Shown here one piece after another: positions 6,245 to 24,665 of a DNA stretch of 64,000 bases. The position numbers were made by a program, and so were the translations under genes. Numbering within the stretch: position 1 is the stretch's first letter; every line of letters begins with the position of its first letter. Below the pieces are notes generated by a model. It was not told the DNA's origin, made no database searches, and worked only from the letters and a program-made list of their open reading frames with translations. The stretch comes from a virus: the IMG/VR virus record IMGVR_UViG_3300042879_003994, positions 1 through 64,000 of that record; one strand, 5' to 3'.

Positions 6245-6249
6245 AATTA

Positions 6250-6337
6250 TGGAACGAGTAGGATTCGAACCTACGGATGATATTAAACCATCGGAAGTTT
6301 AGTAAACTTCTGCTTTAGACCACTCAGCCATCGTTCC
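6250..6337 (-). tRNA. tRNA-Ser with anticodon ACT (class II)
   Basis: Acceptor GGAACGA/TCGTTCC, D-arm GCTGAGTGGTCTAAAGC, anticodon stem GAAGT/ACTTC with loop TTACTAA, a long variable arm (GATG/CATC), T-arm GTAGG-TTCGAAT-CCTAC, discriminator A. CCA is not encoded. The long variable arm and D-arm identify a serine-type tRNA. The anticodon reads ACT, with an unusual A at position 34 (GCT would be expected). It lies directly downstream of the tRNA-Asn and the reductase operon and is probably co-transcribed. Confidence 0.85.
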
Positions 6338-6342
6338 AAAAT

Positions 6343-15398: not shown

Positions 15399-15992
15399 AT
15401 GAATATAACATTAGACGACAATACATTAGTAAAAAATGTTCAAGAGAAAAATGATGAAGAAGCATTAAAAATGCTTATAGACCGTCATTCTGCTCTTTGT
15501 AATTCATTATATAAGAAATATTCTAATTCTATGATTAATTCTGGAGTACATCTTCAAGATGTGGTTGATCAAAAGGATTACATCGTATATAAATCTGCAA
15601 TGTCTTTTGATCCTTGCAAAAACTCAAAGTTTTCAACTTGGCTATATAATCAAGTAAGATATCAGTGTTTAAATTGTATTAATGAAAACTCTCATTATTT
15701 AACCTTAGAGGCAGATAAATTAAACTATCTAGTAGAAAAATATAATTCACCAGAAAAAGAATACAAGAATATTAATGATTATATATTTAATATAATTGAT
15801 TCTTGCTCTGATCAAAGAGTTAAAAATATATTTGAAATGAGATATTCCAATAATTCAAGCAAAAAAATGCCTTGGAATAAGATAGCTAAAAAATTAAAAA
15901 TAAGCACACAAACTGCAATAAATATACACAATAAGGCATTAAAGCTATTAAAGAATAAAATTGAAAGTAAAAATTGTTTTGACAAAATATAA
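15399..15992 (+). CDS. Sigma-70-family-like RNA polymerase sigma factor
   Basis: 197 aa. The N-terminal half resembles sigma region 2: EALKMLIDRHSALCNSLYKK, then YKSAMSFDPCKNSKFSTWLY and QVRYQCLN, the -10 recognition helix pattern. Residues about 140-190 resemble region 4, with a helix-turn-helix (KMPWNKIAKKLKISTQTAIN). It is compact like T4 gp55-type factors. It lies in an early-type operon before the ribonucleotide reductase genes. It is the best candidate to direct host polymerase to the GTGTAA boxes; this link is inference. Confidence 0.75.
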   Translation: MNITLDDNTLVKNVQEKNDEEALKMLIDRHSALCNSLYKKYSNSMINSGVHLQDVVDQKDYIVYKSAMSFDPCKNSKFSTWLYNQVRYQCLNCINENSHYLTLEADKLNYLVEKYNSPEKEYKNINDYIFNIIDSCSDQRVKNIFEMRYSNNSSKKMPWNKIAKKLKISTQTAINIHNKALKLLKNKIESKNCFDKI

Positions 15993-17836: not shown

Positions 17837-20092
17837 ATGAGTATAAAAGTAAAAAAAAGAAGTGGTTCAACTGAAAATTTTAATATAGAAAAAATTCATA
17901 GAGTAATCAACTGGGCAATTAAAGATTTGTCTAATGTAAGCTTAACCGACGTAGAGATTAACGCAAAGATTAGTATCAATGATGGTGTTACTACTAAAGA
18001 GATTCATAAACTCTTAATTGAATCTGCAGCAAATTTGATATCAATAGAAAAACCTAATTATCAATATGTAGCCGGTAGACTTTTAAATTATCAATTGCGT
18101 AAGGATGTTTGGAAAGGTAAACATGCTCCCAGACTATTAGAATTTATTAATCAAGGTTTAAAAAATAAAATATATGATTCTATTATTCTAGAAAAATATG
18201 ACGAAGATGAATTAAATAAGATGGGAGAATTTATAGATCATGAAAGAGACTATAATTTCACCTATGCTGGTATAAAACAATTATGCGATAAGTATCTTAT
18301 TAAAGATCGCGTCACAGGTAAAATATATGAAACTCCGCAATTCGCTTACATATTAATTTCTGCCTATGCTTTTATAAATTATCCAAAAGAGAATAGATTA
18401 AGTTATGTTCGTAAGTTCTATGACGCAATCAGTAAACATAAAATAAATCTTCCAACTCCTGTAATGGCTGGAGTAAGAACTCCAAGTAAAAATTATGCAA
18501 GTTGCTGTTTAATTGGAGTAGATGATAGTAGGGATAGTATAACTGCTAGTGCTACAGCTGTAAGTATGGCTACTGCTAGTAGATGTGGGATTGGAATTGA
18601 TGTATCAAAGATTAGAGCTATCGGTTCTCCAATTAAGAATGGGGAAGTCGTTCATACTGGTTTGATCCCATTTCTTAAAATTTATGAAAGTAGTGTTAAG
18701 GCGTGGCAACAAAATGGTCTTCGCGGAGGAAGTGCTACTTGCAATATTCAATGGTGGCATTATGAGATCGAAGACATTGTAGTGTTAAAAAATAATGCAG
18801 GTACAGATGATAATCGCGTCCGCAAATTAGATTATACAGTCGGTATGAGTAAACTATTTTATGATAGAGTATTAAAAGATGAAGATGTTACATTATTTAA
18901 TACAGCTGAAGTTCCAGAACTATATGAAGCTTGGGGAACTAAAGACTTCGATAAGTTGTATAAAGAATGCGAATCTAAAAAACTAAAAATCAAGAAAAAA
19001 GTATCTGCTCGTAAATTATTCTCTTTAATTATCAAAGAAAGAGTAGAAACTGGTAGAATTTATATTCTTAACGTAGATCACGCTAATAATCATGGAGCTT
19101 GGTTAGATAAAGTCACAATGAGTAATCTTTGTACTGAAGTTATCCACCCAACTACTCCATTAAATGACTATCACGACAAAAATGGCGAAATTGGTATGTG
19201 CATTCTTTCGGCAGTGAATATGCTAGAAATTAAAAACTGGCAGGATCTTGAAAAGACTTGCGATCTTATCGTAAGATTTCTAGATGAAATCATTGAAATT
19301 CAAGATTACTTCAATATTGCTGCTGAAAATTTTGCAAAAAAACGTCGTAGTCTTGGAATTGGTATAACTAATTTGGCAGCCTATCTTGCTAAAAATGAAT
19401 TAAAATACACCTCAGATAAAACACTTCCAATTCTTGATGAATGGATGGAACATTTTCAATACTACCTTTTAAAGTCAAGTTTAGAACTTGCTAAAGAAAA
19501 AGGTAAATGCGAAAAATTTGACAGGACAAAATACTCGAAAGGAATTCTACCTATTGATACTTACAAAGATAAAGTAGATGAATTATGTAAAAGGAAATTA
19601 TCTCTTGATTGGGAAAAATTAAGAAAAGAAATAAAAGAATTTGGATTAAGACATTCTACATTATCATCTTGTATGCCATGCGAAAGTAGTTCTGTAATTC
19701 AATCTTCAACTAATGGCGTAGAACCAATTCGTAGTTTAATTACTTATAAAATGAGCAAGATGGGTAAGTTACCAGTACTAGTTCCTGGAGTTGGAAAGTA
19801 TGATGAGAATTATGAATTAGCGTATGATTTTAAAGATAACTCAGGTTTATTAAAAATTAACGCTATTATTCAAAAGTATATTGACATGGCGATATCAACT
19901 AATGTATACTATAATTATTCTCATTATGAAAATAATGTTCTTCCAGACGCAAAAGTAATGAAAGAAATTATGCAAGCATATTCTCTTGGTCTAATTAGTC
20001 TTTATTATAATAATACTGACGATGGCGATAAGGAGCAGCTAATGAATCAAAAAGAAGATCGCGATTGTTCTTCTGGAGCGTGTAAATTATAA
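17837..20092 (+). CDS. nrdA: Ribonucleoside-diphosphate reductase, alpha subunit
   Basis: Class I enzyme making dNDPs from NDPs. An N-terminal ATP-cone (IKVKKRSGSTENFNIEKIHR) is followed by the barrel with NYASCCLIGVDDS, RCGIGIDVSKIRAIGS, the radical-site loop SNLCTEV and GMCILSAVNM. The C-terminal tail CSSGACKL provides the redox cysteines. 751 aa is full length. nrdB follows after 3 nt. The upstream 70 nt hold a possible -10 (TATACT at 17822) but no convincing -35. Confidence 0.97.
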   Translation: MSIKVKKRSGSTENFNIEKIHRVINWAIKDLSNVSLTDVEINAKISINDGVTTKEIHKLLIESAANLISIEKPNYQYVAGRLLNYQLRKDVWKGKHAPRLLEFINQGLKNKIYDSIILEKYDEDELNKMGEFIDHERDYNFTYAGIKQLCDKYLIKDRVTGKIYETPQFAYILISAYAFINYPKENRLSYVRKFYDAISKHKINLPTPVMAGVRTPSKNYASCCLIGVDDSRDSITASATAVSMATASRCGIGIDVSKIRAIGSPIKNGEVVHTGLIPFLKIYESSVKAWQQNGLRGGSATCNIQWWHYEIEDIVVLKNNAGTDDNRVRKLDYTVGMSKLFYDRVLKDEDVTLFNTAEVPELYEAWGTKDFDKLYKECESKKLKIKKKVSARKLFSLIIKERVETGRIYILNVDHANNHGAWLDKVTMSNLCTEVIHPTTPLNDYHDKNGEIGMCILSAVNMLEIKNWQDLEKTCDLIVRFLDEIIEIQDYFNIAAENFAKKRRSLGIGITNLAAYLAKNELKYTSDKTLPILDEWMEHFQYYLLKSSLELAKEKGKCEKFDRTKYSKGILPIDTYKDKVDELCKRKLSLDWEKLRKEIKEFGLRHSTLSSCMPCESSSVIQSSTNGVEPIRSLITYKMSKMGKLPVLVPGVGKYDENYELAYDFKDNSGLLKINAIIQKYIDMAISTNVYYNYSHYENNVLPDAKVMKEIMQAYSLGLISLYYNNTDDGDKEQLMNQKEDRDCSSGACKL

Positions 20093-20095
20093 CCT

Positions 20096-21160
20096 ATGAA
20101 AAGTGTTTTAAATCTTAAAAATATAGATTATACAAAGCAACCATTATTCTTTGGAGAAGACCTTAATCTTCAAAGATATGATCGTTTTAAGTATCCTATC
20201 TTTTTTGAGCTTTTTAAAAAACAAGAAGAATTTTTCTGGTGGCCTCACGAGATCGCTCTAAATAAAGATCGAAGCGACTATAAGGACCTAGCTGGTCAAG
20301 AAAGATTTGTATTTGATACTAATCTGAAATTTCAAACCCTTGGAGATAGTATGCTTTCTAGAAGTATTCATTCTCTTAAAGATTATGTAAGTAATCCAGA
20401 GCTTGAAATATGCATGAACACTTGGCAAAGATTTGAAGGAATTCATAGTTATTCTTACTCATATTTACTCAATAATGTTCATCCAGACGCTAGTAAGTTC
20501 TTTGATAGCATTATGGAAGACAAAGAGATTGTATCCCGCGCCGAATTAATAAGAAATAATTTTGATAAAATACTTGGAGATGATGATAAGAAAGATCTAA
20601 AACAGAAAATCTTTGATTGTATTCTTTCCGTTAATGTTATGGAAGGACTTGTGTTTTATGTATCATTTGCCTGTTCTTTTTATTTTGGATATCGTGGAAA
20701 AATGGAAGGAAATGCTAAAATAATTAAATTTATTCAAAGAGATGAAGCGTTACATTTTGCTACAACTCAAAATCTAATTAAAATTCTAAAAGAAGAAGAT
20801 AAGGAAGGTTTTACTTCTATAGTTAAGAAGAGCGAAGATAAAGTATACGCTTTTTATGAACAAGCTGCTAAAAATGAGATCGAATGGGCTGAATATCTAT
20901 TCAGTAAAGGTTCATTATTAGGTTTAAATGCTGAAGTATTAGGTGGTTATTCTAAATGGCTTTGTGATGCTCGTTTACGATCATTAGGATATAAGAAAAT
21001 TTTTAATCAAAAAGATAACCCAATATCTGGCTGGCTAGACAGTTATCTTGATAGTAGTAAAGTTCAAGTGGCTCCACAGGAAACAGAAATCTCAACTTAC
21101 AAGATCGGAGCAAGAAAAACTGATATATCTGATGACGATTTCGGAGATATGAAGCTATAA
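20096..21160 (+). CDS. nrdB: Ribonucleoside-diphosphate reductase, beta subunit
   Basis: Di-iron/tyrosyl-radical subunit. Metal ligands are visible at D84 (TLGDS), E114 and H117 (FEGIHSYSYSY), the Glu of NVMEGLVFY, and RDEALH. The radical tyrosine is present at the expected position four residues after His117. 354 aa. It works with NrdA immediately upstream. Confidence 0.97.
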   Translation: MKSVLNLKNIDYTKQPLFFGEDLNLQRYDRFKYPIFFELFKKQEEFFWWPHEIALNKDRSDYKDLAGQERFVFDTNLKFQTLGDSMLSRSIHSLKDYVSNPELEICMNTWQRFEGIHSYSYSYLLNNVHPDASKFFDSIMEDKEIVSRAELIRNNFDKILGDDDKKDLKQKIFDCILSVNVMEGLVFYVSFACSFYFGYRGKMEGNAKIIKFIQRDEALHFATTQNLIKILKEEDKEGFTSIVKKSEDKVYAFYEQAAKNEIEWAEYLFSKGSLLGLNAEVLGGYSKWLCDARLRSLGYKKIFNQKDNPISGWLDSYLDSSKVQVAPQETEISTYKIGARKTDISDDDFGDMKL

Positions 21161-21780: not shown

Positions 21781-22296
21781 GTGACGGTTTCGGAAAGAGA
21801 TATAGATTTTTTTGCTAAAAAGCTTGGCTTATCACCAGAAAAGACTTTTTTGCTTCTGCAAGATCCAGATTGCTTACCAGAAATACTAGAAAAAGTATCA
21901 GAAGATAATATAGATGGAATCGTAGACATTAGTTTTCCAGTCTTTACAGAATTAACTATAATAAAATATAGCAAAGATTTAGATTACTCATTTGAAGAAA
22001 AGGAATATATATCAGAGACTGTTGGCACAAAATTTTATGATCTTATAGAATATCCACTTCAAAATAAGTATTTTTTTACATTAGAACATAATGAAGATAC
22101 AGCGAGGTCTGTGTTGGTATTTCTTGGATTCTTTTATAAGAGTTTACATAAAACTAGAAGATGTTATCCTTCTGAAAGTATATACTTTAATATAGCAAAA
22201 AATGGATTTATAAATTCAGATAAAGAAGAGATATCTTATCATCTAAAAGATTGGATTAAAGTATTAAGAATCATACATAATGAAGTTTGGTTTTAA
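21781..22296 (+). CDS. Hypothetical protein
   Basis: 171 aa, GTG start shortly after a TGTAATAG sequence that may be a weak late box. No domain is recognised. It looks soluble and helical, with an acidic first half and an aromatic-rich second half (VLVFLGFFYKSLHK). Probably third gene of the small late cluster that starts at 21187. Confidence 0.6.
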   Translation: MTVSERDIDFFAKKLGLSPEKTFLLLQDPDCLPEILEKVSEDNIDGIVDISFPVFTELTIIKYSKDLDYSFEEKEYISETVGTKFYDLIEYPLQNKYFFTLEHNEDTARSVLVFLGFFYKSLHKTRRCYPSESIYFNIAKNGFINSDKEEISYHLKDWIKVLRIIHNEVWF

Positions 22297-22309
22297 TACG
22301 AAATCCTCA

Positions 22310-22628
22310 AATTATTTAACTTTTCTTTGATATCCAAAAGGGCTTTACCTCCAGATTTTATATATCTGAAGTTGGGTATTATCAATCCAACTTTTCTTTT
22401 GACTCCAAATTTACCGCAATCTCAGCGATAAACGGGCCATCGCACTTATGGGTCAGAGGTAGCTTCGACCACTACATTCTGCGATGCCTATAGCTACATT
22501 CCCTTCAAAAGCCATATTATGTACAAAAGAAGGTTTTAATAGTTGTCAGCCCTTTAGACATTGCTATCTCAAGGATTGATAGTTGATTATTTGACATCAA
22601 CAAACTGCTCTAATTGGAAGCTATGTTA
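22310..22628 (-). ncRNA. Structured RNA of unknown family
   Basis: This stretch between two plus-strand genes is richer in G+C than its surroundings. It has many nested helices (plus coordinates): 22337-22344 with 22548-22555 (8 bp, closing), 22352-22356/22364-22368, 22369-22375/22387-22393 (7 bp), 22438-22444/22480-22486 (7 bp), 22502-22506/22529-22533, 22564-22568/22578-22582 and 22582-22587/22596-22601. Inside the 22438 stem, 22451-22454/22467-22470 and 22459-22462/22472-22475 cross as an H-type pseudoknot. A minus-strand promoter at 22635-22663 decides the orientation. Ends are estimates. I cannot match it to a known family. Confidence 0.6.
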
Positions 22629-22634
22629 ATTTAT

Positions 22635-22663
22635 ATACTATTATTTTTTTATTTTTTTGTCAA
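22635..22663 (-). promoter_or_regulatory. Sigma70-like promoter of the structured RNA
   Basis: Minus strand TTGACA (22663-22658), 17 bp, TAGTAT (22640-22635). It points into the structured region, with transcription expected to start near 22628. Confidence 0.65.
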
Positions 22664-22682
22664 ATCTTTTTATAATATATAA

Positions 22683-22892
22683 ATGGAAATAATTAAAAGT
22701 AAAGCCAAATGGTCGGTTTATTCTCAAAAGTGCGTAAAGCATTATAATATAAACAATGAGAATATTTATGATGAACCTACTGAATATCCATGTATTGCTA
22801 TTCCTCAATTAATATCAGATATAAATGGTTCAAGAGTTAAATTCAGTTTTGTTTATAAAAAAGATTGCCAAAAACTTTTAAAAGCTTTATAA
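22683..22892 (+). CDS. Hypothetical small protein
   Basis: 69 aa, unrecognised. A mixed-charge protein with YPCIAIPQLISDINGSRVKF in the middle. TATAAT at 22671-22676 lies 6 nt before the ATG, like other promoters here, but no good -35 is present. It is flanked by the two RNA loci. Confidence 0.6.
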   Translation: MEIIKSKAKWSVYSQKCVKHYNINNENIYDEPTEYPCIAIPQLISDINGSRVKFSFVYKKDCQKLLKAL

Positions 22893-22905
22893 TGTGTAAA
22901 ATATA
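22892..22905 (+). promoter_or_regulatory. Putative late promoter box upstream of tmRNA
   Basis: ATGTGTAAAATATA overlapping the stop of the 69-aa gene; the G of GTGTAA is 28 nt before the mature tmRNA 5' end, leaving room for a short processed leader. Confidence 0.4.
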
Positions 22906-22921
22906 TAAGTTCTTTCTCATT

Positions 22922-23311
22922 GGGCCTGAATTTGGTTTCGATTTTAGTAATAGGAATTAGAATGCAAGTAGAGGTTTAGGTGGGTCTCTTTAAAAAACCT
23001 TAAAAGTATTAACTGCCAAAACAGCCAAATACAAAGGTCATATCTCTGCTAGAGTTTCTCTAGTCGAGGAGACCGTTTCTGTAGCTTAAGTTCTACAGCG
23101 TGATTACCATGACACATCTATTGGATAATTGCGTATTTAGATGTCTCTGATTATAAAGTTTTTTTATTCTTTATTGTCATTGTATTCAAAATAAACTCGC
23201 TTAGTATGTTTGTTCTTTTCCCTATACAAAGCTAAAAATAAAAAGAAATAAACTTGTAGTATTTTAATTTAAATTATCTAAAAGACCTCGGTTCAACTCC
23301 GAGCAGGTCCA
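22922..23311 (+). ncRNA. ssrA: Transfer-messenger RNA (tmRNA)
   Basis: Rescues stalled ribosomes and tags the nascent protein. The acceptor stem pairs GGGCCTG (22922) with CAGGTCC (23304-23310). The T-arm is CTCGG-TTCAACT-CCGAG. The 5' part GGGCCTGAATTTGGTTTCGA matches the tmRNA D-region pattern. Helix 2 pairs TGCAAGT near 22960 with ACTTGTA near 23255. A resume GCC codon at 23015 opens a 24-residue tag, AKTAKYKGHISARVSLVEET then VSVA, with TAA at 23087-23089 inside a CTGTAG/CTACAG hairpin, as in helix 5. CCA is not encoded. About 390 nt, one piece. Confidence 0.92.
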
Positions 23312-23341
23312 AGTAAACTTATGATAAATTCACATAATAAT

Positions 23342-23358
23342 ATGTGTATATATATTAT
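23342..23358 (+). promoter_or_regulatory. Possible promoter of the 23364 gene
   Basis: GTGTATATATATTAT: a GTGTAT box 20 nt before the ATG, with TATTAT 5 nt before it. Class uncertain. Confidence 0.35.
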
Positions 23359-23363
23359 AGATT

Positions 23364-24665
23364 ATGATCATAGAAAATGATAAAGTAGTATTAGTAGATT
23401 TAGATGATGTATCTAGCGCTACTTTTGCCGGTACATGTACTTCATGCGGTGGAGAAAATAGTTATTTCTCAAGAAAAATGGGAGATTTATATTATATAAA
23501 TGTATCAGCAAATAATTCGGGACCATTTACATCAAATGCAAAGGCATCTTTTGATCCAAAAGGTAAAATATTGCCAGGAACTGTAAAAGTATATACATGC
23601 AGAAAAGATGAAAAACCTCCAGTATTTGTTTCAAATACCTTATCTGAAGTTGAACAAAATATTACATTTTTCTATAACGCTTTTAGAACAACAGATACAG
23701 CGCTAGATGCAGATTTAGTCTCAAAAATGGCTTTAGCAATGAAAGAGTATTATGTATTTGGAGATACTAAGAAAAAATGCGAAGAACAAATGTATAAAGA
23801 TTTTCCAACCAAAATCTATCAATCAAAAGCATTTGGACCATTATTAGAAAAATGGACGAATCTTAGATTTCCAGTTTCATTTTATAAGCAAGCAATTAAA
23901 GATATTAGAACTGTTTATACTCCAGATATAAACATTACATGTAAGCCAATGATTTCAATGTGCCCAGATGGTTCAAATGCAACGATAACAGTAGTTAAAA
24001 AAGATGGAACAACTGAGACTTATTGTAAATCTGCACTTATAGTAATTAATAGAAGTTCAGATTTTGGTTATCGTATTAATAAAATTGTAACAGGTGACGA
24101 TTTAGAAAATACCGCTTTATCAAACTGGTCTGAGTATCTATCAGCAAATAGTTCAGCGTATCAACAAGGCATTTTAACTAGGGCGGAGGCAGCACTTAAT
24201 AGTACGCTTCCAAATAGAGTAATTACTTATAAACCAGCCGGTGAAAATGGAGCAATATTTAGATTTAGACTCTCAAATAGTTTAAGTAATGTATTTAGTA
24301 TACAAGTTGCAATTCCAATTGGTTCTGGTCCAGAATTTGGTCAAAATTGGTTTTATACACCAGTTACAACATTTGCTGTTAGCATACCTGCCATCGCTCG
24401 AATGTATAATCAATATCAAAATTTATTAGCCAATCAAAGAGCTTTAGCTGAAGCACGAAGAACGGCGAATAATGCAGCAATTATAAATCCAGATCCACAA
24501 GTTACAACGCCCCCAACAACGATAGATTACAACGTGGATAATCCAGTAAATACTCCCCCAGAGTTTCCAGTAAATCCAAATATAACAGATCCTATAAATA
24601 ATGCAACCCCAGATGGAACTTACGGCGGAAATTCTGGAGCTTTTGATATAGGCGCTGACCAATAA
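23364..24665 (+). CDS. Hypothetical probable structural protein
   Basis: 433 aa. The N-terminal region has CTSCGG and a beta-type Gly/Ser/Asn-rich composition. Residues about 240-350 are regular (GILTRAEAALNSTLPNRV, PIGSGPEFGQNWFYTPVTTF). The last 70 residues are Pro/Asn/Thr-rich low complexity. No domain is recognised. A virion surface or fibre role fits the composition and the possible late promoter but is not shown. Confidence 0.6.
   Translation: MIIENDKVVLVDLDDVSSATFAGTCTSCGGENSYFSRKMGDLYYINVSANNSGPFTSNAKASFDPKGKILPGTVKVYTCRKDEKPPVFVSNTLSEVEQNITFFYNAFRTTDTALDADLVSKMALAMKEYYVFGDTKKKCEEQMYKDFPTKIYQSKAFGPLLEKWTNLRFPVSFYKQAIKDIRTVYTPDINITCKPMISMCPDGSNATITVVKKDGTTETYCKSALIVINRSSDFGYRINKIVTGDDLENTALSNWSEYLSANSSAYQQGILTRAEAALNSTLPNRVITYKPAGENGAIFRFRLSNSLSNVFSIQVAIPIGSGPEFGQNWFYTPVTTFAVSIPAIARMYNQYQNLLANQRALAEARRTANNAAIINPDPQVTTPPTTIDYNVDNPVNTPPEFPVNPNITDPINNATPDGTYGGNSGAFDIGADQ

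Follow-up and report, generated by a model that had tools for sequence, protein, structure and literature searches.

The locus analyzed here raises the question of whether a virus genome encodes a functional tmRNA of its own and, if so, why the tag that it specifies is so long. The window, a stretch of 64,000 nucleotides, belongs to a 73,792-base IMG/VR record (IMGVR_UViG_3300042879_003994) classed as linear, and it comes from a large aquatic virus that infects bacteria and has not been cultured. tmRNA genes are present in 402 of 18,146 phage genomes (2.3%; PMC9004378), which agrees with the statement of an earlier, sequence-only reading of this DNA that phage tmRNAs are known but rare.

ARAGORN and the Rfam family RF00023 independently place a complete one-piece tmRNA at 22922-23311 on the plus strand of the window. 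The ARAGORN call covers exactly these 390 nt, which lack an encoded CCA, and assigns gene positions 94-168 (23015-23089) to a coding part with the tag AKTAKYKGHISARVSLVEETVSVA*. The RF00023 match extends over 22922-23312 and model positions 1-374 with a score of 106 bits against a gathering cut-off of 47 (E 2e-40), the alignment to the model being poor in the pseudoknot stretch of the mRNA-like domain. The claim of a phage-encoded tmRNA thus passes the check by a tmRNA-specific covariance model that had been proposed for it. Furthermore, the acceptor, T-arm, resume codon, and hairpin around the tag stop that had been named in that claim can each be located by inspection of the sequence. The 5' strand of the acceptor stem, GGGCCUG (22922-22928, with G3 at 22924), pairs with CAGGUCC, whose U70 lies at 23308, giving a G3-U70 wobble; the 3' strand together with discriminator A73 (23311) occupies 23304-23311. 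The T-arm, CUCGG-UUCAACU-CCGAG, lies at 23287-23303. Translation of the tag would resume at the GCC codon at 23015 and the frame runs without interruption for 24 residues to a UAA codon at 23087-23089. This stop codon is enclosed by a 6-bp hairpin (23079-23098) in which CTGTAG at 23079-23084 pairs with CTACAG at 23093-23098 around the loop CTTAAGTT. The minimum-energy structure of the tmRNA includes the hairpin, and its fold has a z-score of -3.5 relative to shuffled sequences.

Given the standard gene order and the full-length match to RF00023, this is not a two-piece (permuted) tmRNA. It shares the whole-model match, G3-U70, T-arm, resume codon, stop hairpin, and non-permuted order with bacterial one-piece tmRNA, such as the Bacteroidota ssrA that encodes the tag GENNYALAA. 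It differs from Bacteroidota ssrA in its location in a phage genome, in the lack of an encoded CCA, and in a tag of 24 (or, in some relatives, 33) residues ending in SVA, IAA, or LELV rather than a tag of 9-10 residues ending in LAA or MAA. Complete ssrA genes have been described in the literature for phages of the mycobacteriophage Bxz1 group, Bacillus phage G, Stenotrophomonas phage Marzo, and Bradyrhizobium elkanii phages, and a database of tmRNAs holds 79 unique phage sequences (PMC11915505); our tmRNA differs from these, as a nucleotide search of 50,697 phage records found nothing similar to it at E 1e-5. Methylophilales phage Melnitz is likewise an aquatic T4-like phage, belonging to the wider group that includes the pelagiphages to which the ribonucleotide reductase of the window is closest, but its tmRNA is a two-piece, permuted RNA with a glutamine riboswitch (PMC9004378), whereas the tmRNA described here is in one piece and no other Rfam family, hence no riboswitch of the Melnitz kind, lies within 21900-24000.

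Relatives of this tmRNA were gathered from viral contigs by sequence patterns and by reductase similarity, yielding 62 distinct tmRNA sequences with tags of two classes, A and B, plus a group with tags of a third class, C. One of the pattern searches fixed the first eight tag residues, and the unbiased set therefore consists of 26 records picked only by reductase similarity (NrdB identity of at least 82%). A tmRNA scoring above the cut-off is present in 20 of these 26 records (14 of class A, three of class B, and three of class C), indicating that the tmRNA family is not a product of how the patterns were chosen; all six records without a tmRNA may be fragments. The G3-U70 pair, which specifies alanine identity, and A73 are invariant in all 64 distinct phage tmRNAs. 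Across the same 64 sequences, the T-stem is 98.4% paired, compared with 61% after shuffling (shuffle maximum 69%), and the acceptor stem is 99.8% paired, compared with 90% after shuffling. Since the T-stem remains paired in the face of 15 different stem sequences and the identity elements do not vary, we conclude from covariation and invariance that the RNA is functional. CCA follows the tmRNA 3' end in none of the 64 sequences, that of the window included, so a host CCA-adding enzyme would be needed.

The ends of these RNAs turn over far faster than the tmRNA core, almost always remaining paired. A tree built from 61 core sequences requires a minimum of 37 changes of T-stem type and 21 of 5' acceptor type, even though only about 15 T-stems exist, and cores can be nearly identical despite the turnover (L134, L139, L146, and L187). 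Identical end modules also occur in tag classes A and B (L010 and L072). This turnover of the acceptor/T-arm minihelix would fit either recurrent exchange or strong diversifying pressure.

Could the gene be a non-functional copy of a host ssrA, captured for example by imprecise prophage excision? ssrA genes often serve as integration sites, and in many relatives the tmRNA is closely followed by a stretch, known in 18 variants, that resembles the 3' end of Bacteroidota ssrA. We nevertheless regard this explanation, already disfavoured, as extremely improbable, given the covariation, the invariant identity elements, and the peptide selection described below over the 62 class A and B sequences. 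In addition, no tyrosine integrase was found in 21 records, and the tmRNA DNA gave just short matches of a few dozen bases, and no close homologue, in 296 Bacteroidota genomes. A bacterial source was also sought among genome contigs, where 62 stretches matched the tag pattern AK[TS]AK[YL]KG; the sole tmRNA among them was from Sphingomonas, was flagged as permuted, and had a short tag, so that no tmRNA with this tag was present among the pattern matches.

The tag of the window, AKTAKYKGHISARVSLVEETVSVA, is in keeping with the earlier description of it as unusually long and as ending other than in ALAA. An ordinary ssrA degradation tag has about 10 residues and an LAA-type end, and 10 residues is the commonest tag length in a database of 97,179 tmRNAs (PMC11915505). 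Among 36 Bacteroidota tmRNAs sampled, 35 have tags of 9-10 residues and 34 have tags that end in LAA or MAA, a comparison with the host tag that is indirect in that the host is itself inferred; the tag of the window has 24 residues and ends in SVA. Length alone is not unprecedented, as mycoplasma tags have about 27 residues. All tags of the relatives are either 24 or 33 residues long, with stop codons that sit in a hairpin, and they fall into three classes: 24 residues ending in SVA (class A, with the pattern AKTAKYKGH[ILV]S[AT]R..LVE....SVA), 24 residues ending in IAA (class B, AK[TS]AKLKGSFSLRVSHNKKHLIAA), and 33 acidic residues ending in LELV (class C, AED.FDMAMSLEEADAILA......ATLELV). The final residue of class A and class B tags is always Ala. 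The class C tag (AEDNFDMAMSLEEADAILAAAGFVDTEATLELV) is found in the related phages L269/L319, L274, L275, L335, L338, L330, and L348. A short tag, AEAKLELV, that ARAGORN proposed for L348 was rejected, as the frame conserved among its relatives has 33 residues. A nucleotide search with a class C tmRNA likewise found no similar tmRNA among phage records, and searches of the tag peptides against PDB and Pfam returned nothing credible.

If the additional residues matter as a peptide, then substitutions that alter them should be rare relative to silent ones in the tag frame. For class A (44 haplotypes), the in-frame pN/pS is 0.19 over all codons of the tag. Because the search pattern fixes the first eight tag codons, codons 9-24 were computed separately, and the in-frame pN/pS of 0.28 for these codons compares with 1.63 and 0.73 for the two alternative frames. 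The constraint is strongest in codons 9-18, for which pN/pS is 0.09, with out-of-frame values of 1.6-2.1 and 0.7-1.3 across the regions compared; for the last six codons (19-24), pN/pS is approximately 1.1. All class A tags share the final SVA, but these residues are encoded inside the stop hairpin, and their conservation could serve the RNA instead of the peptide. Class C (six haplotypes) gives an in-frame pN/pS of 0.32 compared with 1.02 and 2.58 out of frame, or 0.46 compared with 0.67 and 2.31 once the first 14 codons, partly fixed by the search, are excluded. The class B value of 0.7 comes from four tag haplotypes, too few to be informative. Low in-frame values over codons 9-24 together with high values out of frame indicate that the tag is a real, selected peptide and that its extra length is itself under selection, with the strongest constraint in the tag body (KYKGHISARVSLVE), a portion that ordinary tags do not have. 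Taken with the conservation of the RNA, this makes it very probable, on sequence evidence, that the locus is a functional one-piece tmRNA with a selected long tag. Phage tmRNAs are already known, and long, peptide-selected tags are the new part; our literature search, mostly outside subscription journals, found no published phage tag that is long or peptide-selected.

Given that the phage appears to lack its own SmpB, which was not found in 12 phage records in searches with positive controls, the tmRNA presumably uses host factors. A phage that must draw on the host pool of SmpB could use its tmRNA chiefly to compete with or inhibit the tmRNA of the host, by titrating SmpB, as has been proposed for the tag-less tmRNA of mycobacteriophage DS6A. 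A tRNA-like-domain RNA is reported to inhibit tmRNA (PMC4131195 and PMC11915505, both citing Mao et al. 2009). The DS6A RNA and the tmRNA described here are both encoded by phages and have a tRNA-like domain through which host SmpB could be bound. However, the DS6A RNA has no tag frame, whereas the frame here is present and selected, and a competitor would have no need of an intact resume codon, an open frame, or a hairpin at the stop, nor of a tag under strong selection as a peptide. We therefore consider the competitor explanation improbable.

The sequence-only reading had placed a late-type box upstream of the tmRNA and had taken it to suggest phage-timed expression. Neither this box as the promoter nor late timing is supported by our analysis. 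The best promoter candidate is of the sigma70 type, TTGCCA-17-TATAAT (22865-22893, plus strand), which matches 11 of 12 consensus bases and leaves 28 nt between its end and the mature 5' end. A sigma70-type pair (TTG...TA...T) is present 19-32 nt upstream of the tmRNA in 60 of 61 relatives, compared with 5.7 expected from shuffles, a contrast that overstates independence because the regions are related by descent. Downstream of the promoter pair, a conserved leader, AGTTCTTTCTCATT (22908-22921), directly precedes the mature 5' end, and its AGTTC-TT element, as GTTC[ACT]TT, occurs in 61 of 61 relatives. A GTGTAA box (22894-22899) abuts the -10 element. This box occurs 13 times in the window, in most cases a short distance ahead of a start codon (e.g., 5438, 7711, 10062, 11042, 22894, and 56737), and it may be a promoter element of a sigma-70-family protein that the phage encodes at 15399-15992 on the plus strand (NCBIfam TIGR02937, 46.1 bits, cut-off 42.9). 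Since the box follows the -10 element and the phage encodes such a protein, phage control of tmRNA expression is still conceivable.

These features suggest a pathway in which expression, alanine charging, use of host SmpB, and action of the tag are all inferred. The tmRNA would be transcribed from the sigma70-type promoter, its ends trimmed and CCA added by host enzymes, and host alanyl-tRNA synthetase would charge it by way of the G3-U70 wobble. Host SmpB and EF-Tu would then deliver it to ribosomes that have stalled on broken messages, presumably a frequent event as the phage degrades host transcripts. Translation would restart at the GCC codon, append the phage-specific 24-residue tag, and stop at the UAA in the hairpin loop, such that rescued proteins would carry the tag GHISARVSLVEETVSVA.

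The fate of proteins tagged in this way could be the usual one. If the tmRNA is an ordinary one, with a long tag that is a quirk of the lineage and simply a degradation signal, host proteases would degrade tagged proteins as usual. Class B tags end in IAA, close to the LAA type, tags of classes A and B always end in Ala, and tag length need not imply a new function. On the other hand, the strongest peptide constraint falls on the tag body and not on its end, and the LELV end of class C is unlike the ends of all 36 Bacteroidota tags sampled. We find this explanation plausible enough to take seriously, while leaning against it. A phage might carry a tmRNA either to raise the capacity for rescue or to change the tag, and tags of two to three times the usual length, with a body under peptide selection, argue for the second purpose. 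Because the tag body is selected as a peptide, the phage tag most likely gives rescued proteins a fate other than the one that the host tag confers, perhaps by weaker or different protease recognition through an SVA rather than an LAA end, or through another binder; we give such a change about an even chance, and the sequence does not decide which fate it would be. The earlier suggestion that a different tag redirects or spares proteins is consistent with selection on the peptide and with the existence of three different tag ends, its proteolysis part being conjecture. More tentatively, and on balance unlikely, the tag may be no degron at all but a functional peptide, a domain of 24 or 33 residues that protects rescued proteins or routes them to another partner, with three separate solutions (basic-SVA, basic-IAA, and acidic-LELV) in related phages. 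This natural family makes the idea of a changed tag testable, and its three tag classes are a ready set for comparing protease recognition.

Upstream of the tmRNA lie genes for a phage ribonucleotide reductase (17837-21160, plus strand), nrdA at 17837-20092 and nrdB at 20096-21160 (PHROGs phrog_84 and phrog_86), which is nearest to those of pelagiphage HTVC008M (54%) and T4-like cyanophages. The genome also carries a dCMP deaminase, a UvsX-like recombinase, a DnaB-like helicase, a UvdE-type repair enzyme, glycosyltransferases, and a lambda-J-like tail protein; a search with a 433-aa neighbour protein found no homologues. Terminase was not found in the window's own record, and the terminase from two reductase relatives is T4-like, with 34-38% identity to the terminases of Caulobacter phage Cr30 and Sinorhizobium phages. 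On this mixed evidence, the record is probably that of a phage in the T4 superfamily that has no close relative in culture. Any of three Shine-Dalgarno 4-mers is present in 11 of 53 start regions of the window, compared with approximately 9 expected by chance on our own estimate, and there is thus no Shine-Dalgarno signal. This, together with the Bacteroidota-ssrA-like 3' ends downstream of the tmRNA in relatives, points to Bacteroidota as the likely, though not proven, host phylum.

These downstream ends are an 18-nt stretch, CGAWTC...CTCCA, that lies 2-10 nt past the tmRNA 3' end (e.g., L127, L134, L145, L155, L164, and L187) and often precedes a small ORF that contains Cys-x-x-Cys motifs. 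Three other interpretations of the stretch were rejected: an integration site (no PF00589 tyrosine integrase in the 21 records), a permuted or split tRNA (a complementary acceptor strand nearby in three of 18 cases compared with 1.35 expected, no clear enrichment), and a tRNA relic, a reading abandoned once this pattern proved to match the 3' ends of Bacteroidota ssrA as well. The window also encodes a tRNA-Ser with the anticodon ACT (6249-6338, minus strand), unusual in bacteria, which lies beside a tRNA-Asn(GTT) and is present in relatives L012 and L036.
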